Assembly (NCBI GenBank): GCA_023144005.1
Contig: JAGLGN010000030.1
Coordinates: 1-64,000 of the forward strand
DNA from: a bacterium
GTDB taxonomy: Bacteria > AUK180
Direction of reading: 5' to 3'
DNA length: 64,000 nucleotides
Position numbers and translations under genes: made by a program. Below, one piece after another: positions 27,062 to 64,000 of the stretch. Below the pieces are notes generated by a model. That model was not told the DNA's origin, searched no databases, and worked only from the letters and a program-made list of their open reading frames with translations. How positions within the stretch are numbered: the stretch's first letter is position 1; the number at the start of each line of letters is the position of its first letter.

Positions 27062-28390
27062 ATGAACGATATCATGAAAGAACTTAAACAGATCTCTGAG
27101 ATGAAGGATATTTCCTTTGAGGCAGCCAGAGAGATTTTAGAAGAGTCCATTAAACTTGGATTTATGGAGAAAAGTCAGAGGACTAAAGACAATGAGCTTT
27201 ATCCGATATATATGCAGCGGATCACGATCCGGATAAGTGAAAAGAGAAACGATATTTCAATATCTTTTCACAAGGCCGTTGTGGAAGAAGTAAAGAATAA
27301 ATGGCTGGAGATAGCGATCGATGACGAGGATCTCGCCGAGAAGAAGAGAAAATTAGGCGAAATGGTCAAGGTAACGGTAAGATTGAAGCAGGTACCGAGA
27401 TCCATCGCCGCTAATATCAGAAAGATCTTCAAGAACAAGATCCTGACCAAGGAAAAAGAAGGTGTCTATAAAGATTTTGAAGATAACAGGATCGGTAAGA
27501 TCGTAATGGGAACCATCATCGGCAAAGAGAGAGAAAGCAGAGAGGTTATCGGCTTCAGGGTCGATCTTGACCGCATTTACGGATTTTTACCGAATGAAGA
27601 AGCGGTATTCTCCGATAAATACGGCATCGGCAAGAAGTATAAATTCCTCCTTGTGGAGGTGCGTGAAGATGACGGCCAGAAGAGGATCATCCTTTCCAGA
27701 AGAAGTCATGACTTTATCAAGGAATTGCTCAGGCAGCAGATCCCTGAAGTGAAAGAGGGTTATGTTATTATCAAGAAGATCGTAAGAGAGCCCGGTATAA
27801 GAACTAAGATATCCGTTTCTTCGGAAAATTCAAAACTTGATCCGGTAGGCGCCTGTGTCGGCCCCAGGGCTCAGAGGATCAGCGAGATCAGAAAGATCAT
27901 CGGAGAGAAATTGGATGTAATACAATACTCCGATAGTTTGGATGAGTATATCAAGAACTCATTGAAGCCCGCTACCATTAAAAAGATCATCATCAATAAA
28001 AGAAAGAAGAGGGTTCTGGTCATTGTACCGGACGATACGGAGCAGCTTGGCCACGCGCTCGGAAGAAATGAATCAAACAGGACCTTGACCGGTGAATTGA
28101 TCGGGATGTACGTTGAAATTAAAAAAGAAGACGATTATAAAAAACAACTCGAAAAGGAGAGAAACGCGCTCTTAGTTTCCCGCAGCGTGCTTCTGGGTAT
28201 CAAAGGAATAGATGAGGGCACCGCCCTAGGCCTTACCCAGCTATATGGGACACTTGAAGATATTTCTCTTTTGGATCCCGAGGAGATCATGGACGAATTC
28301 CCCGAGATCAAGAAACGCAAGGCTTCCAAGATCATAGAGCTCGCAAAGGCAAATATCGGCCGGCTTTATGAAGGAACCAAGGAAAAATAG
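27062..28390 (+). CDS. nusA: Transcription termination/antitermination factor NusA
   Basis: About 442 residues. The N-terminal RNA-polymerase-binding domain (1-140) is followed by an S1 domain (about 143-215, IGKIVMGTIIGKE) and two KH domains (about 215-360, VGACVGPRAQRISEIRKIIG and VLVIVPDDTEQLGHALGRN). A C-terminal helix-hairpin-helix-like region (about 385-435) replaces the acidic repeats of E. coli NusA. It binds RNA polymerase and nascent RNA to control pausing and termination. The ATG at 27062 is chosen because GGAGG precedes it by seven bases. The usual upstream gene rimP is missing here. Confidence 0.95.
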   Translation: MNDIMKELKQISEMKDISFEAAREILEESIKLGFMEKSQRTKDNELYPIYMQRITIRISEKRNDISISFHKAVVEEVKNKWLEIAIDDEDLAEKKRKLGEMVKVTVRLKQVPRSIAANIRKIFKNKILTKEKEGVYKDFEDNRIGKIVMGTIIGKERESREVIGFRVDLDRIYGFLPNEEAVFSDKYGIGKKYKFLLVEVREDDGQKRIILSRRSHDFIKELLRQQIPEVKEGYVIIKKIVREPGIRTKISVSSENSKLDPVGACVGPRAQRISEIRKIIGEKLDVIQYSDSLDEYIKNSLKPATIKKIIINKRKKRVLVIVPDDTEQLGHALGRNESNRTLTGELIGMYVEIKKEDDYKKQLEKERNALLVSRSVLLGIKGIDEGTALGLTQLYGTLEDISLLDPEEIMDEFPEIKKRKASKIIELAKANIGRLYEGTKEK

Positions 28391-28399
28391 AGGTGAGGT

Positions 28400-31102
28400 A
28401 TGCGAAGACGAGACCTAGCAAAGGAATTCAATGTAGACTATAAGGTCATTCGGGAAATAATCGAAGCGAATTTCCCGGGTGAGGATTGGAAACTTTCCGC
28501 ACGGAATGTAGAAGAAAATTTAGCCAATCTATATAGAGACAAGATCAAACAAGCCATAGAGAAACAAAAACCGGTAACCAAACCGAAAGCTATCATTGGA
28601 AAAGATGAGAAGTTAAAAGAGAAGATCTTAAAGAAAAAGAAACCGGCAAAGGCCAAGAAGGAAAAGGAAAAGGAAAAGGAAGAAGGGAAAAAGACCAAAA
28701 AAGCGGCATCGAAAACTACTTCCAAGACAAAGACCAAGAAAACAAAAGCAAGTGAAGCCAAAAAAGCACCCGCGAAGAAAGCCCCGAAAAAGCCGACTAA
28801 AGAGGATAAAGATGCGGCGTTAATGAAAAAAGAAGAACAGAAAGCCGCGAAGGCGCTTGTCATTGCAGAGAAAGCAAAGAAAGAAGAGGAAAAAGCCGCA
28901 AAGACCAAAAAAGAGAAAGAAGAAAGCGAGAAAGAGGAAAGAAAGAGAAAGATCCTTCAAAGGCAGCAGCGTGAAAAGGATAAAAAGGAAAGGGATAAAA
29001 AAGAAAGACTGAAAAAGCAGGAAATGCGGAAGAAAAAAGATCTTGAGGATAAAAGGACCGCTGAAAAGAAGGTTAACGCTACTACCGACGCCGAGCTGAT
29101 CGAAGCGAAAGGTGATAAGAGGCGGCCTTCACAGAAAAAGAAATATACGAAGAAAAAGGATGATGCGGCAGCGGCGGTCACAGCCAGCAAAAGAAGAGCC
29201 AAGCGACTTATCTCAAAGGATTTCGATATTGACATTGAAACTGAACTCTATGAGCTTGAGCACAAGAATAAGAAGTCCGATTCACCCGATACTACGGTGG
29301 TATCCGCTCCCAAAGCCCCAGCCAAGAAGCCCAAACCCAAATTGAGAAAGAAGAAAGGTGATATCAAAATAGATAGACGCATACGCATACATGAGCGCAG
29401 TACAACTCTTGAAATCGCCAATTTCCTGGACATGGACGCCCTGGAGCTCATTAAGAAGATGAAAGAATTCGAGCTATGGCTTTCACCCACACAGCAATTG
29501 AGTTTCGAGGAGATCGACCTTATATCGCAGGTTCTGGAGATCGAAAATATCAACATCATAAGATTAGCGGATGAGGAGCTCACCAAGGTTGAAGAAGATA
29601 TAGAAGATGGTTTCAAAAGAGCTCCTGTAATAACAGTGATGGGACATATCGATCACGGCAAGACAACATTATTGGATGCTCTGCGCAATACCAATGTTGC
29701 CGCTAAGGAAAGCGGCGGTATAACTCAGCATATAGGCGCATCTTATGTAGAAAACGAGCATGGTGAATTCTGTATGATCGACACCCCCGGGCATAGTGCA
29801 TTTACAGCGATGAGGGCACGCGGAGCAAAGGTCTGCGACATCGTGATCCTGGTGGTTGCCGCTGATGATGGTGTTAAGCCTCAAACAGTGGAAGCGATTA
29901 ATCATGCAAGGACCGCCGGTCTTCCTATAATAGTTGTAGTGAACAAGATCGATAAGAATAATGCGAAAACTGAGGTGGTAAAGACACAATTATCGTCCGA
30001 ATATAATCTTCTGGATATCAATTATGGCGGTAAAACTCAATTCGTGGAGGTATCCGCTCTTAAAAAGACAAATATAGAGGCAGTTATTGATGCGATACAG
30101 CTTCAATCGATCGAATTGAATTTGAACGCGGATCCCGGCAAACCCGCTACAGGCTTTGTTCTTGAAGCGCAGGTAAAAAAGGGAATGGGTTCTGTGGCGA
30201 CCGTAATTATTACCAATGGAACTCTCAATCCAAAAGATAATTTCGTATGCGGCACAACTTACGGCAGAGTAAAAACTTTATTCGGCAGTGGGGGAAAAGC
30301 TCTTGGGAACCTTGGACCATCACGTCCCGGTCAGGTTTCGGGATTCGCGGAACTCCCCGAGCCCGGTGATGTTGTGATCGTTGTGGACGATGAAAAGGAA
30401 GCCAAAGACCTGGCACAATCCAAGAAGAGATTGATGGACGAAACAAAATTGGCATCCAATAAGAAGGTCGATATCGATTACCTTTTTGCTCAGGTCAGTG
30501 GTGACCTTAAGGAATTGAAGGTAATTGTGAAGACAGATGTCGTTGGTTCCGAAGGTGTCCTGAACGATCTTATGCAGCACTTCCAGCATAAGGATGTCAA
30601 GATAAACCTCATTCATTCAGCCGTAGGAGATATTACGGATAATGATGTATTTCTTGCCGCATCTTCTGACGCGATGATATTCGGTTTCAAGGTGAAGATA
30701 CCCAATGCTCTAAAAAAGACAATAGATAAGGAAAAGGTGCGTATCAATATGTTCTCAACTATTTTCGAGATCGAGGATTTCCTTAAAGAACTCATCGAAG
30801 GTAATATCGTGAAGGAAACAGAGGAGAAGATCAAGGGGCATGCTGAAATAAGAGCTATCTTTACGATCGGTAAAGTGAACAAGATCGCCGGATGTTACAT
30901 GAAAGACGGTGTCGCTACAAGAAATTCATTTGTACGTGTGCTTAGAAAGGACGGGCTCCTTCATGAAGGCAATATCGAATCCCTGAAGCGTGAGAAAAAT
31001 GATGCAAAGGAGGTCAAGCAGGGACTTGAATTCGGTTTGAAGATAAAAGACTTCAATGATATAGAAGTCGGTGATGTTCTGGAGTTTTACATCTACGAGT
31101 AA
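28400..31102 (+). CDS. infB: Translation initiation factor IF-2
   Basis: 900 residues. A short IF2 N-terminal domain (1-55) is followed by a very Lys/Ala/Glu-rich linker (about 60-310), a second N-domain (about 330-390) and the GTPase core from about 410. The core carries [10 protein letters not shown] (G1), DTPGHSAF (G3) and VVNKIDK (G4). Domains II-IV complete the usual IF-2 architecture, which positions initiator tRNA on the ribosome. G1 has Ile where Val is more common, a conservative change. It follows nusA by 9 nt with GAGGTGAGGT before the ATG. Confidence 0.96.
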
Positions 31103-38233: not shown

Positions 38234-40143
38234 AAGGAACACGAAGAAATCTGATATATCTCATTTTCATAATTGTCATGTTCGCGGTCTTCATCGTATT
38301 TTCTCTCAGAACCTTATCTGAGCTGCAGGGAGAGAGCCGGATCACTACCGTTTACATAGTATTTCAGCTTCTAGCCCTCTTCGTTTTCATCTTCTCATTT
38401 CTATTTGTTGCTCTGAAGGGCGCATTGTACTTTTTTAATGAAAAAAGCAAAAAATCATTTAAAGACAGAAGCATACGCTCTAAATTCTTTGTAATAATCT
38501 TAATGGTCGTTATATTCATCTCCGTTCCTCAAATAATCTTTAATGTTCTATTCACAAATAATCTTCTGAATCAATGGGGAGGGAAATTGTTTCGAGATAC
38601 TATCGATGCGGGTGTTGAGTATTCCAGGTATGTGATATCACAGAAAGTCCGCACGGCTCACATCTGGATCGATAAATTGCCCGAAGAGGATCTCAAAGAG
38701 CTGGAGATCAGAAAGAACGCGGGAGAAGAGGAATTAAAAGCGGGTGAAAGCCTTTACCTTGAGGACCGCATACTCTTCAATAAGGGCGGTATTGTCTGGG
38801 AGATCACTCTTTCTGAGGAGGAGAAGAATTTCTTATACAATGTAAATGAAACGCATAACCGATTTTTCAAGGATTCACTTTTTCGCAAAAAGGCCTCTCA
38901 GATCTTTGCGATAATCTCCATCTTCATCATCTCTGTGTTTATTTTTGTGCTTTCCTTCTGGATCGCGGGATTTCTGGGGAAGGACCTTATTCTGCCCATT
39001 GAAAATCTCATGTTGGGCACGGAAGAGCTCAAAAGGGGAAATTACCGTTTCAAGATACAGAAAACTTCTGAAGACGAGCTTGGGGTCTTGATAGATAATT
39101 TCAATAAGATGTCATCAATAATTCAAACCGCGAGGGACGAGCAGAGCAAGTTAAATGAAAATCTGCAGACGGAGCGGGATTTCCAGAATGCCATCCTTAC
39201 TTCTGTCACAACCGGTATCGGCATTATTTCCGCTAAAGGGGACATGATCTTCAAGAATCCTTCTTTGGAAGCAATTCTGCAGGAATTGGAATCGCCGGAA
39301 GAACTTGAGAAGTCCATTTCCAAGATGCTTTCCGACAAGGATGAAACCCTGCTCAAGAAACGGATAAGGATAGGAGATATTTTTCTTTCGATCAATATCT
39401 TGAATTTTCGATCTGGCAAGTCGGAGAAACTGCTTATAGTCGATGATTTCACCGAGATACTCAATCTTCGCCGCGCCGAGATATGGCAGGCAATGGCGAG
39501 GAAATTAATGCATGAACTGAAGAACCCGCTCACTCCAATATCGCTGGCCATTGACCGTTTGCGCCGAAAGCGCTCACAGGATCCGGATGGTTTTGAGAAG
39601 ATCTTTGACGAGAATACCGCTATTATCAAGGAAGAAATAGACAGATTATCGAAACTGCTGAAACACTTCAATGATTTCGCGAAACTTCCCGCGCCTCATC
39701 TCAAGAAAATGTCGCTTGACAAATTATTGGGAGATCTTATTAAACTCTATTCGGATAAGGAAGACAAAAATGTCTCTATTCACCTCCGTACAGAGGCTGA
39801 TGATGCGATGATAGAAGGTGATCAGATCCTTCTTAAGCAGCTTTTTGTGAATCTGCTCAATAATTCCCTTGATTCCTTTAAGGGGGGAAAGGGGGCGATC
39901 AATATTATCATCAAGGGCGATGAGAGAACTGTGTATGTTGAATTTTCTGATAATGGCATAGGAATAGCTAAAAAAGACCTTGATAAGATCTGGGATATAT
40001 ATTTTTCAGGAAAAAAATCGGGCACCGGCCTTGGCTTAACAATGGTGCAAAGGATCATTGAAGATCATAGCGGCAGGATCAGTGTAAGATCATCGCTGAA
40101 GACCGGCACCGTATTCGATATCGAATTCAGGAGAAGGCAGTGA
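38230..40143 (+). CDS. NtrY-like membrane sensor histidine kinase
   Basis: 637 residues. Three N-terminal spans (about 8-28, 37-62, 82-108) and one more near 220-248 bracket a periplasmic region. A HAMP domain (about 250-300) and a PAS-like segment (about 315-405) follow. The HisKA box MHELKNPLTPISLAIDRLR (His about 425) and HATPase motifs (NLLNNSLDS, FSDNGIGI, GTGLGLTMV) are complete. The HELKNPLTPI form is typical of NtrY. No response regulator is adjacent; comF follows instead of ntrX, so its partner must lie elsewhere. The start is TTG coupled to the upstream stop. Confidence 0.88.
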   Translation: MKGTRRNLIYLIFIIVMFAVFIVFSLRTLSELQGESRITTVYIVFQLLALFVFIFSFLFVALKGALYFFNEKSKKSFKDRSIRSKFFVIILMVVIFISVPQIIFNVLFTNNLLNQWGGKLFRDTIDAGVEYSRYVISQKVRTAHIWIDKLPEEDLKELEIRKNAGEEELKAGESLYLEDRILFNKGGIVWEITLSEEEKNFLYNVNETHNRFFKDSLFRKKASQIFAIISIFIISVFIFVLSFWIAGFLGKDLILPIENLMLGTEELKRGNYRFKIQKTSEDELGVLIDNFNKMSSIIQTARDEQSKLNENLQTERDFQNAILTSVTTGIGIISAKGDMIFKNPSLEAILQELESPEELEKSISKMLSDKDETLLKKRIRIGDIFLSINILNFRSGKSEKLLIVDDFTEILNLRRAEIWQAMARKLMHELKNPLTPISLAIDRLRRKRSQDPDGFEKIFDENTAIIKEEIDRLSKLLKHFNDFAKLPAPHLKKMSLDKLLGDLIKLYSDKEDKNVSIHLRTEADDAMIEGDQILLKQLFVNLLNNSLDSFKGGKGAINIIIKGDERTVYVEFSDNGIGIAKKDLDKIWDIYFSGKKSGTGLGLTMVQRIIEDHSGRISVRSSLKTGTVFDIEFRRRQ

Positions 40144-40793
40144 AATGCGCCCTTTGCGGCAAGAAAATGAAGATAAGATCTCCGTTTTGCCCTTCATGCA
40201 GCTCAAGATTGCTGCGTTCTCCGATATCCGCCTGTGAAAAATGTCATTGCGCGCTTTCTGGAAGAAGGAGGCTGTGTGAACAATGCAGGGGGCGGAAGAA
40301 TTACTTCGACGGATTTTACAATCTCGGTTATTACGCCAAGGGAATGGGAGAAATAATCAGGAAGGTAAAATTCAGAGAGGAGCGAAAACTTGCTTTGGGA
40401 TTGGGACGAATGATGGGGAAAATTCTAAAAAGAGAAAATAGAGAATACACTTATATAATTCCCATACCAATGTCACCGAAACGCTTTCATGAAAGGGGAT
40501 TCAATCAGGCATATGAGATCGCGAAAGGAGTAGCGAAAACCATGGGAGTGAAGCTCCGGGCAGATCTTCTGGAGAAGCGTGACACGATCGCCTTTGAGAA
40601 ATTGAATAGAGTTCAGCGCCGAAGGGAAGTAAAGAAAGCCTTCAAGAGCACAAAGAAGATAGACAAGGCCAAGGGAGCTTCTATCCTGCTTGTGGATGAT
40701 GTATTTACGACGGGAACTACGGTAAATGCTGTGGCGCATCTTCTAAAAACGGGTGGCGCCTTAATAGTTGACGCTGGAGTGATCGCAAGATGA
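40140..40793 (+). CDS. comF: ComF-family phosphoribosyltransferase-like protein
   Basis: 217 residues. An N-terminal double zinc ribbon (CALCGKKM, CPSC, CEKCHCALSG, CEQC) precedes a type I phosphoribosyltransferase domain with ILLVDDVFTTGTTVNA near residue 178, the PRPP-binding loop. IIPIPMSPKRFHERGFNQA near 102 is the family signature. ComF supports natural transformation, helping handle incoming single-stranded DNA. This fits with the ComEA- and ComEC-like genes at the end of the window. The start is GTG, overlapping the kinase stop. Confidence 0.9.
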   Translation: MKCALCGKKMKIRSPFCPSCSSRLLRSPISACEKCHCALSGRRRLCEQCRGRKNYFDGFYNLGYYAKGMGEIIRKVKFREERKLALGLGRMMGKILKRENREYTYIIPIPMSPKRFHERGFNQAYEIAKGVAKTMGVKLRADLLEKRDTIAFEKLNRVQRRREVKKAFKSTKKIDKAKGASILLVDDVFTTGTTVNAVAHLLKTGGALIVDAGVIAR

Positions 40794-59213: not shown

Positions 59214-60287
59214 ATGAGCAGAAAACAGACCCTTATCGTCTTATTTGAAATTTTACTTCTTATTCTAGGTATATTCCTCTATTTCGCCGGTGATTCTCTC
59301 TTCTCAGGCAAGTTCTCTGAAGAAGAAGAGATACTGAGAAAGGAGATTCTCGGACTTTCAGAAAAAATAGATGTGTACGAGGACTCTGACAGCAGAGAAC
59401 TTTTCACCAAGAACTTCCTTGAGATCCGTAAAAGTTACAATCAACTCAGTATCACATTTGTTGAAAAGGACTATACAAATGCTCTTTCCGCATACACGGA
59501 GTTCGTTCAAGAATTAGAATCACTAAAAAGTGAAGTGGACTCCCATTATGCCGACTTGAAGGCAAAAAGAGAGCAGGCGGCTGTGGAGGACGAACTTGCG
59601 CAGCTGAAGAAGGATCAGGAGATGAAAATCGCCCAGGCGGTTTCCAAGGCAAAAAAGGAACAGGCGGTGGCTGTCGCTGCTGCGAAGAAAGAAGCGAAAA
59701 CTACCGAGACAACTCCCTCTGGATCGTATACATATGCTCCTTTGAAGAAGGTATCTTCCGAACCTGCTGCTGCCGAACCGGTTAAGGCCGCTGCCACGCA
59801 AGCCGTAAGTGCGGATAATTCTGGAAAAGTTGACATAAATAACGCATCCATCGCGGAATTAGACAAATTACCGCGCATCGGGCCTGTTAAGGCGAATGCG
59901 ATTTACGATTATCGGATGGCAAACGGCGGTTTTACTTCAATTGAGGACATCGTTAGTGTAAGCGGTATCGGAGAGAAGACATATGCCTTATTGAAACCCC
60001 TGATATACTGCGGCAAATTTGGAACGGCTTCTTCCCCCGCGGTAAGCACCAGTTCTCCCGCGGCATCTCAAACATCCGCCGCGGACAAGGTCAATATAAA
60101 CACCGCGGATCAGACGCAATTAGAGACATTACCCCGAATCGGCCCCGCGACCGCCCGTAATATCATTAATTACCGTGATGAGAACGGGCCCTTTAAAACA
60201 TATGAGGATATCATGAATGTTCCCCGGATAGGCGAGAAGACCTTGGCGAACATTAAACCATTTATAAAATTAGGAGATGGCGAATGA
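59214..60287 (+). CDS. Membrane-anchored protein with two ComEA-type HhH domains
   Basis: 357 residues. One N-terminal span (about 7-26) is followed by a long charged coiled coil (about 35-165), an Ala/Pro/Thr-rich linker and two ComEA-type helix-hairpin-helix domains (about 204-266 and 292-354). Their cores read LPRIGPVKANAIYDYR with VSGIGEKTYALLKPL, and LPRIGPATARNIINYR with VPRIGEKTLANIKPF. ComEA binds incoming DNA at the cell surface; here the DNA-binding domain is doubled and held off the membrane by a coiled coil. The stop overlaps the pseudo-helicase start by 4 nt. A very similar HhH unit recurs in the gene at 62506. Confidence 0.85.
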   Translation: MSRKQTLIVLFEILLLILGIFLYFAGDSLFSGKFSEEEEILRKEILGLSEKIDVYEDSDSRELFTKNFLEIRKSYNQLSITFVEKDYTNALSAYTEFVQELESLKSEVDSHYADLKAKREQAAVEDELAQLKKDQEMKIAQAVSKAKKEQAVAVAAAKKEAKTTETTPSGSYTYAPLKKVSSEPAAAEPVKAAATQAVSADNSGKVDINNASIAELDKLPRIGPVKANAIYDYRMANGGFTSIEDIVSVSGIGEKTYALLKPLIYCGKFGTASSPAVSTSSPAASQTSAADKVNINTADQTQLETLPRIGPATARNIINYRDENGPFKTYEDIMNVPRIGEKTLANIKPFIKLGDGE

Positions 60288-62254
60288 ACATAAGCAACCT
60301 GATCGAGAAACTCCCTGAAAAAGAACAGAAGTATTTCATCTATCTTATCAAAGACCTCAAGGATGAAGAAAAGGAAAGATTTATCAGGGAAGTGTATGAA
60401 CTTTCGGAAGTTGAACAGGATCTTATCCTGAAGATGCTTCTGAGGATGTCACCGGAACAGATCACGGGCATTATTTATAATTCCAATGATGAGGGGCCTT
60501 TGATGATACTTGGAGACGAGATATCGATGAAGCGTACCCTTCTGGCCAATAGAATAGCGTATCATCTGATCACCCGCAATATCAAGGTGGATGAGGTTCT
60601 GGGGTTATGCTTTTCGAATCTAAATGCCGGAAGTATAATCGACATGATCGGTAATTCTCTGCCGGAAAAGATGATCTTCCGTATGGATATCGATACTTTC
60701 AATTCGATCTCATTGCAGATACTGAGAGATTATGTTCTGGGAAGCCTGAATATCGAGAAGATCGGTTATAAAACATCTCCGAAATTCAGGGTATTAGTGG
60801 CAAGAGAGCAATTACTTCTTTTGAAAAGGGCTTTGGAGGAATCGAAGATACCTTCCTCAGAGCTTGGCTTCTCACAGCTTGTCGGCAGCATCATAGGATT
60901 GAAAAGAGAATTGGTCTCGCCCGAAGACGCGGTGAAGCAGGCAAAGGATGACGAGGCGGTAAAGGTGGCGAAGGTATATACGATTTATCAGGACCTTCTG
61001 ATAAAGAACAATACCTGTGATATCAATGATCTTGTTCGGCTTACGATCCAATTGTTCAATACATCTTCAGAGGTTCTCGAATACTACAGAGGCAAATACA
61101 AGATGATCTTTATTGACGACTATCATTATTCGAGTTTTGCCCAATACCAGATGATCAAGGTACTGACCGAGGGCAAGAAGAACCTGACCTTTACATCAGG
61201 GCATAAGATAAACACATATAAATGGTCCGCGAACGCGGTAAATTATTCCAATGAATTTGTAAAAGATTTTAAAGGCAAAACGGTTGAATATGATAGAAGC
61301 GCGATAGATGTTGAGGAGATCCTCAAGCGTGAGATCTTTATTGAGACCGGCGAGAGCGTGGAAGAGATAGAGCCTGCCGAGACAGCTGACTTCAACGAAT
61401 ATATTGAAGGAGAGGCCCTGATCAGGCTTGAAGAGGAAGATGAGGTAAATGAATCTTCACTTGTTATCAACTCCATCATCAGAAAAACTCAGGAAGGCAC
61501 TCCTTTCGGTAAGATCGCTATCGTGGTGAGGACTAACCGCCAGATCGAAGTCCTGAAGAAAGTATTGAAAGGCGCGAATATACCTTTCTTTATTACAGGA
61601 GATAGATTGCTTGCCCGTGATGAGATCAATGATGTTATGTCATTGCTGAAAACAGTTTATTATGTTTCGGAGATGAATAGCAAGAAAAAACTTACTCCTG
61701 ATGAACTGCATGACCTGAACGAATCGCTTAAAGCCATTTTCCTGAACATTATTCCGCTTCAATTGGAATTCAACACATATGTTCAATTAGAGAAAATGGC
61801 ATTAGAGGCGCAAACGGATATATATTCAATACTACTGGATGACGAGAAGGAGACCGACAGATTCAAGACACGGTTCCCGCTTAAGGACAGAGAGATCGTA
61901 GGGTTTTTCAAAGACCTTATTCAGACGGTATCCAAAGAGATCGAAGAGTTCGATGTCGCCATTTTGATAGAGCTTCTCACCAATGAGACCAAATTCCTTG
62001 ATTCTCTGGTCGCGGAGGGGAAAACCATAGGTAGAATAAAGGCCGAAAACATCAAATACCTCTACCTTTATGCTACTGAGTTCATGAAGAACAATAGCAA
62101 AAAAGGCAAGGCCGGACTGAAGGATTTTGTCATGGATATCGTGGCGAAGAAGAAAAAGCAAGACGAAGAATTGAAATTACATGAAGATGATGTTAAGGTT
62201 ATCACTCTTAATGCCATTGAAGATATTTCTTATCAGATCTATTATCTGATCTAG
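60284..62254 (+). CDS. UvrD/PcrA-like pseudo-helicase
   Basis: 656 residues. It aligns by eye along UvrD/PcrA-type SF1 helicases, yet the catalytic motifs are lost. The Q-motif survives (MSPEQITGI, near 55). Motif I is EGPLMILGDEISMKRT (near 69) instead of EGPLLIMAGAGSGKTR. Motif II is FIDDYHYSSFAQY instead of VDEYQDTNxAQY. Motif III is SGHKINTYKWSAN instead of GDxDQSIYxWRGA. Motif IV is well kept (VVRTNRQIEVLKKVLKGANIP, near 413, shown to within one residue of PcrA's spacing). Motif V is VITLNAIEDISYQIYYLI and the protein ends there, so motif VI is absent. The frame is intact, so it is probably a functional non-ATPase rather than a dead gene. It is coupled to the HhH gene upstream. Confidence 0.8.
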   Translation: MNISNLIEKLPEKEQKYFIYLIKDLKDEEKERFIREVYELSEVEQDLILKMLLRMSPEQITGIIYNSNDEGPLMILGDEISMKRTLLANRIAYHLITRNIKVDEVLGLCFSNLNAGSIIDMIGNSLPEKMIFRMDIDTFNSISLQILRDYVLGSLNIEKIGYKTSPKFRVLVAREQLLLLKRALEESKIPSSELGFSQLVGSIIGLKRELVSPEDAVKQAKDDEAVKVAKVYTIYQDLLIKNNTCDINDLVRLTIQLFNTSSEVLEYYRGKYKMIFIDDYHYSSFAQYQMIKVLTEGKKNLTFTSGHKINTYKWSANAVNYSNEFVKDFKGKTVEYDRSAIDVEEILKREIFIETGESVEEIEPAETADFNEYIEGEALIRLEEEDEVNESSLVINSIIRKTQEGTPFGKIAIVVRTNRQIEVLKKVLKGANIPFFITGDRLLARDEINDVMSLLKTVYYVSEMNSKKKLTPDELHDLNESLKAIFLNIIPLQLEFNTYVQLEKMALEAQTDIYSILLDDEKETDRFKTRFPLKDREIVGFFKDLIQTVSKEIEEFDVAILIELLTNETKFLDSLVAEGKTIGRIKAENIKYLYLYATEFMKNNSKKGKAGLKDFVMDIVAKKKKQDEELKLHEDDVKVITLNAIEDISYQIYYLI

Positions 62255-62264
62255 GAGGACGATT

Positions 62265-62492
62265 ATGGGAAAGTATGACAAGTACAAAAAAACGACAGAA
62301 TCCACTAACCTGGATAAATACAAGAAGCAGAGCGGGAAGAGTTTTGACGAGATCGATAAAAAACTGGATGCTCAGCCTGAAACTGCTGCTGCGCAGGAGA
62401 ATAAAGCATCAATGGGTGGAAATGTGCTAATAGTTGTTCTCGGTATAGCCACTGCCATTGTCTGGGTTCTGGCGATCGGAAAACTGATCTGA
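62265..62492 (+). CDS. Small tail-anchored membrane protein
   Basis: 75 residues. The first ~48 are charged and low-complexity (two KYDKYKK/LDKYKKQ-like units), and the last ~25 form a single hydrophobic span ending at the C-terminus (GNVLIVVLGIATAIVWVLAI). The topology is probably tail-anchored with the basic part in the cytoplasm. It is not recognised as a known family. An AGGAGG overlapping the pseudo-helicase stop precedes the ATG, and the next gene follows after 13 nt, so it belongs to the operon. Confidence 0.7.
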   Translation: MGKYDKYKKTTESTNLDKYKKQSGKSFDEIDKKLDAQPETAAAQENKASMGGNVLIVVLGIATAIVWVLAIGKLI

Positions 62493-62505
62493 TAGACCGG
62501 TGATC

Positions 62506-64000
62506 ATGAAAAAATTCATTTTATCTTTATTACTTCTTGTATGCATATTTGCGTTTGCCGGCGAGTTGAAGATAGCTTTCATCAATGTTAACCAGGGCGA
62601 CGCAATGCTTATTTCAACTCCTGAAGGCAAGCATTATATTGTCGATGGGGGACAGCCCGCATATTATGACCCCGTAAAGGATATTTATTACTCGAGATTT
62701 GACGCGGGAAGAGATGTGATCCTGCCGTACCTCAAATCGCAGGGCATCGAGAAATTGGATGGTATCCTCGCGACGCATCCTGATGCCGACCATATAGGCG
62801 GACTGGTACATTTGCTTAAGAATATGCCCGTTGATACCGTTTATTACACCGGCAGGCTCCACACCTCCAATATTTTTCAGGTATTTTTAACCCTCTCGAA
62901 GGAAAAGGGCGCCAAATATATCGAAGTGAGGGACGGTGATATATTGAAATGGTCTCCTGCAATGCTGGTAAATGTTCTTGCCCCGACCGATAAAGAGATG
63001 GATTATGCCAAGAATAATAACAATACCTCTATTGTGCTCTTTATCAAATATGGGGAAACTTCGTTCATTCTCTCGGGAGATGCGGAGAAAGAGCAGGAGG
63101 ACAGAATGTCTTCGGACTACGGGCAGAATCTGAAGGCGGATCTTCTTAAATTCGGACATCATGGTTCAAAATCTTCTTCGATGACGCGCTATCTGAATCT
63201 GATCGCCCCCAAATACGGCATAATATCCTGCGGGAAGAACAATAAATTCGGTTTTCCCCATAAGGATGCCCTTGATAGATATTATCATGCAAATTCTGAT
63301 ATGCTCATAGGGCGTACGGATTATAACGGACATATCGTTGCCGTCAGTGACGGCAGTAAGATCAGTTTTGAAGTCCAGAAGGGAGAGATGTACACCATGG
63401 AAGAGGTTTTTGCACAGGAAAACCTTACTATTCCCGGAAAAGCAGCGAAAACCACTACGGTGCAGAAATCCGGAAATAATGACAGCCCTCTCGTGTCATC
63501 CGGTGACCTGGTGAATATCAATACTGCTTCACAGAGTCAGCTTGAGACATTGCACAGGGTTGGTCCCGCGACCGCCCGCAATATTATAAATTACCGCGAT
63601 GAGAACGGGCCTTTCAAAAGGATAGAGGATATTCAAAATGTTCCGAGGATCGGACCAAAGACATTTGAGAATCTGAAAGCCCATATTACCGTCGGTGACA
63701 GCGCCGCGGCACCCTCCAGCGGAACACAGAAAAAAACCACAACCACTGTTTCTTCAGGGGCTCTGGTGAATATCAATACTGCTTCACAGAGTCAGCTTGA
63801 GACATTGCACAGGGTTGGTCCCGCGACCGCCCGCAATATTATAAATTACCGCAATGAGAACGGGCCTTTCAAAAAGATAGAGGATATTCAAAATGTTCCG
63901 AGGATCGGGCCGAAAACATTTGAGAATCTGAAAGCCAATATCACAGTAGGCGACGGCGCCTCTACCTCTTCTCCTGAAGCGAAGAAGAAAGTTGAAGCAA
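62506..64000 (+). CDS. Secreted ComEC-like metallo-hydrolase fused to tandem HhH domains (partial)
   Basis: At least 498 residues, running off the window. The signal peptide (about 1-19, ending AFAG) is followed by a metallo-beta-lactamase-fold domain (about 20-290) like the C-terminal domain of ComEC: GDAMLISTPEGKHYIVDGG, THPDADHIGG with the metal His/Asp residues, SGDAEKEQE, LKFGHHGSKSSS and FPHKDA. After a linker come two ComEA-type HhH units (from about 335 and 420) that are nearly identical in DNA. The ComEC membrane channel is absent. It probably acts on DNA or nucleotides in the periplasm while holding DNA through the HhH units. Confidence 0.85.
   Translation, partial: MKKFILSLLLLVCIFAFAGELKIAFINVNQGDAMLISTPEGKHYIVDGGQPAYYDPVKDIYYSRFDAGRDVILPYLKSQGIEKLDGILATHPDADHIGGLVHLLKNMPVDTVYYTGRLHTSNIFQVFLTLSKEKGAKYIEVRDGDILKWSPAMLVNVLAPTDKEMDYAKNNNNTSIVLFIKYGETSFILSGDAEKEQEDRMSSDYGQNLKADLLKFGHHGSKSSSMTRYLNLIAPKYGIISCGKNNKFGFPHKDALDRYYHANSDMLIGRTDYNGHIVAVSDGSKISFEVQKGEMYTMEEVFAQENLTIPGKAAKTTTVQKSGNNDSPLVSSGDLVNINTASQSQLETLHRVGPATARNIINYRDENGPFKRIEDIQNVPRIGPKTFENLKAHITVGDSAAAPSSGTQKKTTTTVSSGALVNINTASQSQLETLHRVGPATARNIINYRNENGPFKKIEDIQNVPRIGPKTFENLKANITVGDGASTSSPEAKKKVEA
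63508..63945 (+). repeat. Tandem 255-bp HhH-coding repeat
   Basis: The unit beginning 63508 recurs at 63763 (offset 255 bp, 85 codons). The first 90 bases (63508-63597 and 63763-63852) are identical, and the HhH-coding part continues with only scattered changes. The linker between units is less conserved. The HhH core also resembles the DNA at 60145-60240 in the first gene of the operon. Confidence 0.9.

Follow-up and report, generated by a model that had tools for sequence, protein, structure and literature searches.

Introduction

Bacterial helicases of the PcrA type belong to superfamily 1A (SF1A) and grip single-stranded DNA (ssDNA) in a groove across domains 1A and 2A, while PriA and ComFA are members of superfamily 2 (SF2). 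Helicase-like proteins that lack the motor have been described in both superfamilies. PriA of Deinococcus radiodurans is a pseudohelicase without ATPase that binds DNA (PMC4504706), and in AddB and RecC, which are SF1 pseudohelicases, the Chi sequence is bound where a helicase tracks along ssDNA, in domains without most or all of the motor motifs (PMC4824097; articles are cited here by PMC number, each for a part of its text). The stretch of DNA analysed here, hereafter the window, comprises the first 64,000 nucleotides of contig JAGLGN010000030.1 from a bacterium of the GTDB lineage AUK180 (assembly GCA_023144005.1) and encodes a PcrA/UvrD-like protein of 656 amino acids (aa) in which the ATPase motifs are lost while the intact gene is under strong purifying selection; both points are well supported. 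To the further proposal, that this pseudohelicase is an ATP-independent holder of ssDNA at the inner face of a predicted DNA uptake machinery, we would give about even chances.

The protein is like AddB and RecC in having an SF1 topology minus most or all of the motor motifs, kept, as it seems, for a non-motor role, and like the PriA of D. radiodurans, which kept DNA binding, in being a bacterial helicase relative without an ATPase. It differs from AddB and RecC, which in the cited part of PMC4824097 are subunits, each one half, of helicase-nuclease complexes, in being free-standing, without a nuclease domain and closest to PcrA; from PriA, in belonging to another helicase family and in coexisting with an intact PcrA; and from PcrA, UvrD and Rep themselves (1pjr, 3pjr, 2is4, 1uaa), in the loss of motifs I, II, III, IV and most of V, in the absence of motif VI and the C-terminal part, and in an added N-terminal extension. 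What sets it apart is the combination of a free-standing pseudohelicase of the PcrA type, a conservation above that of the intact PcrA in the same genomes, and a constraint that has moved off the ATPase domain. Among the matches listed from open-licence PMC articles, titles and abstract starts name no PcrA-type pseudohelicase linked to competence.

A PcrA-Type Protein Without the ATPase Motifs

The open reading frame (ORF) runs on the forward strand from an ATG start to a TAG stop with zero in-frame stops; its start and the stop codon of the preceding gene share the bases ATGA (60284-60287), and the next gene begins at 62265, 10 bases past its own stop. An earlier note, made from the DNA letters alone, had pointed to this frame of 656 codons coupled to a neighbour and to its UvrD/PcrA homology, and both stand. 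In Pfam the ORF matches PF00580 (E 1.5e-31, 110.5 bits) and PF13361 (E 1.4e-14, 54.7 bits) and, at E 0.001, no other nucleotide-binding family and no nuclease domain; the nearest NCBIfam model is pcrA, at 178 bits where the equivalog cut-off is 911, and among solved structures PcrA (1pjr) comes first in a search with the orthologue profile (E 8e-69). The fold model is likewise of the UvrD/PcrA kind, and not an unrelated structure such as the earlier note had allowed for, so that the UvrD N- and C-terminal domains and the (predicted) PcrA fold of an SF1A helicase are present.

The motifs were compared between 15 intact PcrA-type sequences and five distinct orthologues of the pseudohelicase (four where the partial copy of genome G006 is without the residues); the near-identical rows of G001, and likewise the G006 protein used as PcrA, were excluded from the column counts. 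The 15 intact sequences share 108 columns conserved to at least 90%, of which 23 are kept in every pseudohelicase covering them and 62 are lost in all, 20 of the latter lying past the chain end. In motif I, AGAGSGKT has become GDEISMKR, with one of seven conserved positions kept, the Lys (4/4, the G006 copy starting after motif I); the pattern GxGK[TS] of UvrD/PcrA helicases is gone, including the glycines and the Ser/Thr after the Lys, as had been described before. The Q-motif, previously read as kept, retains its Gln (Gln59, 4/4) and has lost its Asn. In motif II, already reported as DDYHY, the first Asp is retained, and 5/5 have lost Glu, Gln and the second Asp. The position of the catalytic Glu holds Asp in four of the five distinct orthologues and Ala in the fifth, G002 (DAYHY), where Asp therefore cannot be a hidden substitute. 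Of motif III (GDxxQ), held earlier to be gone, the Asp and Gln are indeed lost in 5/5 and the Gly in 4/5, though the Tyr is retained in 4/5. The earlier view failed for motif IV, said to be well preserved: NYRS is lost in 5/5 in the alignment, and an invariant Arg (R338) sits three residues upstream of the motif IV position. Degradation of motif V and a chain end before motif VI, both anticipated, are seen in the alignment: the Thr of motif V is kept in 5/5, the Lys lost in 5/5, His and Gly lost in 4/5 and Glu in 3/5, with G006 the least degraded (Thr, His, Gly and Glu retained), and all six sequences end before motif VI and its Arg. A simple pattern check agrees, as 39/40 of the other proteins from two database searches (P0005-P0044) match motif I and 39/40 match GDxxQ, while neither pattern is found in the four pseudohelicase entries (P0001-P0004).

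Outside the ATP site, F110, T138, D246, R416, R445 and E447 are kept in all orthologues covering them and W314 in 4/5; several of these positions we take to line the ssDNA groove in PcrA.

Purifying Selection and a Shift of Constraint

Between G000 and G001, which belong to one genus, the pseudohelicase gene shows 36 synonymous and 3 non-synonymous changes, that is, a ratio of non-synonymous to synonymous substitution rates (dN/dS, Nei-Gojobori) of 0.021, compared with 0.026 for PcrA and with 0.116 and 0.140 for two genes encoded beside the pseudohelicase, a ComEA-like protein and a metallo-β-lactamase (MBL) protein with helix-hairpin-helix repeats (MBL-HHH; see below); the comparison stays within the genus, as nearly all wider pairs are saturated at synonymous sites. 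Across genera (G000 against G002, G003 and G004), identity is 72/65/68% for the pseudohelicase and 58/54/53% for intact PcrA, and in G002 and G003 PheS (62.5/59.5%) and PheT (56/51%), both assigned by Pfam, also lie below the pseudohelicase. The selection as a non-ATPase pseudoenzyme for which the earlier note had argued is in this way supported, and the protein shows three features of our working class of pseudohelicases, namely a helicase fold, lost catalytic residues and purifying selection; to another, a retained binding of nucleic acid, the conservation of residues outside the ATP site may point.

The distribution of this constraint over the protein has also changed. Columns were counted over four genera, with G001 and G006 left out; the G006 protein first used as PcrA has 29% identity, is no clear orthologue and was excluded from the conservation counts. 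In PcrA, domain 1A is the most conserved and 2B the least, whereas the invariant columns in pseudohelicase vs PcrA amount to 44 vs 54% in 1A, 60 vs 33% in 1B, 51 vs 41% in 2A and 44 vs 14% in 2B (41/94 vs 10/73 columns in 2B). The interaction of 1A against 1B plus 2B has a permutation p of 5e-5 over the 337 columns common to eight sequences, which is the minimum attainable with 20000 shuffles and, since columns depend on the alignment, only a guide. Relative to PcrA, constraint is shifted away from the ATPase domain (1A) and towards 1B and 2B. The most conserved stretch of the pseudohelicase is the linker 346-378 (75% identity), and the N-terminal extension (residues 1-54) is 68% identical across four orthologues.

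Distribution and Ancestry

The phylum is sparsely sampled, with seven genomes, six of which carry the pseudohelicase, every copy with a dead motif II and a short end. The gene is unbroken in all six, the G006 copy having its 5' end cut by a contig end; as to whether orthologues are frameshifted or absent, which the earlier note had raised, no broken frame was met and one genome gave no match (see below). Identity to the protein of the window is 99.5% in G001, 72% in G002, 68% in G004, 65% in G003 and 39% in G006, which represents a second family. A wider search covered 98 genomes: 88 give some match, and six, the genome of the window included, carry the pseudohelicase at an identity of at least 39% over most of the length, the next-best match by E-value (5.5e-41) reaching 28% identity and a short one, over 148 residues, 32%. 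Two database searches, with the protein and with a profile, each scoring the 8000 candidates that share most words, gave no further pseudohelicase; distant ones may exist elsewhere.

In a tree the pseudohelicases group together (support 100/100) without joining the PcrA of the family, so that a recent copy of the genome's own PcrA is unsupported as an origin; deep branches are open in this tree, and long branches are present. The G006 copy shares DDYHY and likewise ends just past motif V, and on this ground the protein may have been inactivated and shortened already in a common ancestor of the two families, or twice independently, or it may have been passed between families.

As for intact relatives, no clearly canonical PcrA was seen in the incomplete genomes G005 and G006. 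Their full-length UvrD-like proteins are altered too: in that of G005 (L106) motif II is VDDFQ and motif VI is ITCSE, and in that of G006 (L060) motif III is GNDDES and motif V is degraded.

A Four-Gene Block with Uptake-Type Neighbours

The pseudohelicase gene is the second of four genes whose order (ComEA-like, pseudohelicase, 75-aa protein, MBL-HHH) is the same in 5/5 genomes of the family (Table 1).

Table 1. Features of the pseudohelicase locus, in window coordinates.
Feature	Position	Strand	Remarks
ComEA-like protein	59214..60287	+	Two HHH_3 matches; N-terminal hydrophobic anchor (by eye)
Pseudo-PcrA/UvrD, 656 aa	60284..62254	+	SF1A fold, ATPase motifs lost; chain ends after motif V strand
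N-terminal extension, residues 1-54	60284..60445	+	Helical in model; precedes start of PcrA match
Motif I remnant, residues 77-84 (GDEISMKR)	60512..60535	+	Lys alone kept
Motif II remnant, residues 278-282 (DDYHY)	61115..61129	+	D-x-Y-H-Y invariant in five distinct orthologues
Motif III remnant, residues 304-317	61193..61234	+	Tyr312 kept 4/5, Trp314 kept 4/5
Motif V remnant, residues 637-656, and chain end	62192..62251	+	Motif VI and PcrA C-terminal part absent
75-aa protein	62265..62492	+	Lys-rich N-terminal part; hydrophobic segment at the C-terminus, by eye a likely tail anchor
MBL-HHH, ComEC-type MBL domain	62500..63999, past window end	+	THPDADHIGG and GHHGS intact; HHH_3 repeats

The ATGA overlap is kept in 4/5 family genomes, with a one-base gap in G004. 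The 75-aa protein, for which Pfam gives no match, is found in 7/7 genomes of the phylum. MBL-HHH is 695 aa at full length, ends at position 64587 of the contig (C24) and has a signal-peptide-like start (by eye); Pfam assigns to it Lactamase_B and four HHH_3 stretches, and in G001 and G004 the contig ends inside its gene. Upstream of the block the gene content varies between genera, and pheS follows the block in G000, G002 and G003.

Beyond the window on the same contig, a PD-(D/E)XK nuclease with a Cas4-like C-terminal match (L064:8407-9864) follows pheS, pheT and zapA, in an order shared by G002 and G003. A split AddB, which this gene suggested, was rejected, as pheS, pheT and zapA intervene and the genome has its own pair of AddA-like and AddB-like genes (both under the NCBIfam cut-offs), which adjoin each other on contig C28. 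The pseudohelicase itself has neither a fused nuclease or nuclease-like C-terminal domain, PF00580 and PF13361 being its only Pfam families, nor an AddA or RecB next to it. Gabija, raised by PADLOC hits, was rejected by context, the neighbours being the ComEA-like protein, the small transmembrane protein and MBL-HHH: the match to GajB is weaker than that to PcrA, and no GajA-like gene lies beside the pseudohelicase. Elsewhere in the genome (contig C16, L063:925-3718) an OLD-type ATPase/TOPRIM gene overlaps a short UvrD-like gene, likely a Gabija (GajA/GajB-like) pair. The short PcrA of Mycoplasma pneumoniae was set aside as a parallel, since in the cited part of PMC3720892 it is reported to be an active helicase.

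The Predicted Uptake Machinery and Its Probable Nuclease

The genome carries ComEC, DprA and pilus/secretion ATPases of PF00437. A ComF-like gene lies in the window at 40140-40793, 20 kb upstream, with GntX as its best NCBIfam match followed by ComF at 89 bits, both under cut-off. The competence link of the neighbours is absent from the earlier note, and the ComEC gene lies outside the window.

In the MBL domain of ComEC from Moorella, a nuclease, the aspartates of motif II are required, and the same aspartates matter for transformation of Bacillus subtilis (PMC8579336); in Streptococcus pneumoniae, by contrast, this domain is probably without activity, and EndA takes its place (PMC8579336; PMC12455585). 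In the phylum studied here, an alignment of the C-terminal parts of ComEC with the standalone MBL domain reveals that ComEC has lost the MBL metal motif in 6/6 proteins found (no match in G001), THPDADHIGG and GHHGS being replaced, for example by TDYSQDNNSAV, while the standalone MBL-HHH retains both metal motifs in 7/7. Pfam accordingly finds Competence and DUF4131 and no Lactamase_B in 3/3 ComEC proteins run. A C-terminal MBL-like domain is still present in ComEC of the same genome (contig C6, L061:1391-4291) and at L075-L079; it is 49-53% identical among three family members, and therefore the dead domain itself is retained.

The loss of the motif from ComEC and its retention in MBL-HHH, together with the S. 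pneumoniae precedent, make it likely that MBL-HHH took over the nuclease step and that the block carries the uptake nuclease. The likeness to the published account of S. pneumoniae lies in a ComEC without MBL metal ligands and in the availability of another nuclease; the difference lies in the stand-in, here probably a ComEC-type MBL domain fused to HHH repeats and encoded, in one family, with the pseudohelicase. A DNase that carries a DNA-binding HhH domain at its C-terminus is described in PMC4777378 and gives a further case of a nuclease combined with repeats of this kind.

A Proposed Role and Its Alternatives

In published models of transformation the 3'-leading strand enters the cytoplasm, pulled by ComFA or perhaps PriA, and the action of inner-side proteins on the incoming strand past ComEC is described as poorly understood (PMC12455585). 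The pseudohelicase has no SF2 helicase domains, as ComFA would, but SF1 UvrD families only. We infer a role in DNA binding and uptake that could proceed as follows. The secreted MBL-HHH would cut the non-imported strand, a task that in other bacteria falls to the MBL domain of ComEC; the ComEA-like protein would hold duplex DNA outside, and ComEC would move one of the strands inward. The pseudohelicase, perhaps held in place by the small tail-anchored protein, would receive this strand in its old tracking groove, block it as a passive clamp from sliding back and then hand it to DprA/RecA. The clamp is proposed on the basis of the strand-entry model, the groove of PcrA and the binding of Chi by AddB and RecC at the equivalent site. 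If true, a motor-less holder of ssDNA would offer a testable alternative to a puller driven by ATP, or complement it. More tentatively, and with less confidence than for the holder alone, the whole may be a rewired uptake machine, with a dead-nuclease ComEC whose job has moved to the secreted MBL-HHH and a motor-dead PcrA that clamps the strand and makes its movement one-way without ATP.

Several points weigh against the proposed role, which is weakest in the membrane location and, since the end of 2A is missing, in DNA binding. The fold model has a predicted template modelling score (pTM) of only 0.54, so the domain arrangement is uncertain, and the end of domain 2A is absent, the chain stopping at the equivalent of UvrD 573; Escherichia coli UvrD shortened by 102 residues has a considerably reduced ssDNA affinity (PMC7864180), and because the pseudohelicase ends even earlier, its truncation counts against ssDNA holding. 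In G006 the pseudohelicase is followed by STAS and epimerase genes, and the uptake-type genes (ComEA-like HHH gene, small protein, MBL-HHH) are on a separate contig, while G005, 80% complete and the sole genome of the phylum where no pseudohelicase was found, has the small protein, MBL-HHH and pheS as consecutive genes; owing to these two arrangements the link between pseudohelicase and uptake genes is shown in one family only. In the pseudohelicase taken alone, 1A is not significantly below 1B plus 2B (Fisher p 0.066), and 2B is its segment of lowest pairwise identity (60%, compared with 31% in PcrA). The organism, moreover, is known here from assemblies alone.

The main rival, possible although we consider it rather unlikely, is that the protein regulates the intact PcrA (or AddA) by pairing with it in a mixed dimer through 2B, the uptake genes being mere neighbours. 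It ranks first since 2B drives the dimer activation of UvrD-family helicases, which are activated by 2B-2B dimers (PMC13238157), and is far more constrained in the pseudohelicase than in PcrA; the presence of an intact PcrA-like gene in the genome and the separation from the uptake genes in G006 fit it as well. The low constraint on the 2B domain of PcrA itself would be odd for a dedicated partner surface, however, the block with the ComEA-like protein and MBL-HHH is retained throughout the family, and the UvrD-like gene of the second family is just 29% identical to the PcrA of the first.

A scaffold without any nucleic acid role, in which the SF1 fold would serve as a protein platform for membrane-anchored neighbours, seems improbable. 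The conservation of the linker and of the N-terminal extension, and the small, likely anchored protein encoded next door, are what such a platform might show, but several positions that are conserved in the intact family and lie away from the ATP site are retained in every orthologue covering them, and the partners in the block bear DNA-binding HHH repeats.

That nucleotide is still bound or hydrolysed through a rebuilt site is very improbable: Lys83 of motif I and Gln59 are kept in all four covering sequences, and against these stand the losses of the glycines and of the Thr next to the Lys in motif I, of the Glu in motif II (replaced by Ala in G002), of Gln and Arg in motif III, of the Arg in motif IV and of motif VI as a whole. 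A pseudogene that is yet unbroken, or an assembly artefact, to which the absence of motif VI and the C-terminal part could point, is already refuted by the conservation data, that is, by the dN/dS of 0.021, the same chain end in two families and an identity above that of PcrA, PheS and PheT.

Elsewhere in the window, the 2-kb step 28001-30000 has an AT skew of 0.38, far above the other steps, and overlaps an ORF of 900 aa (28400-31102).

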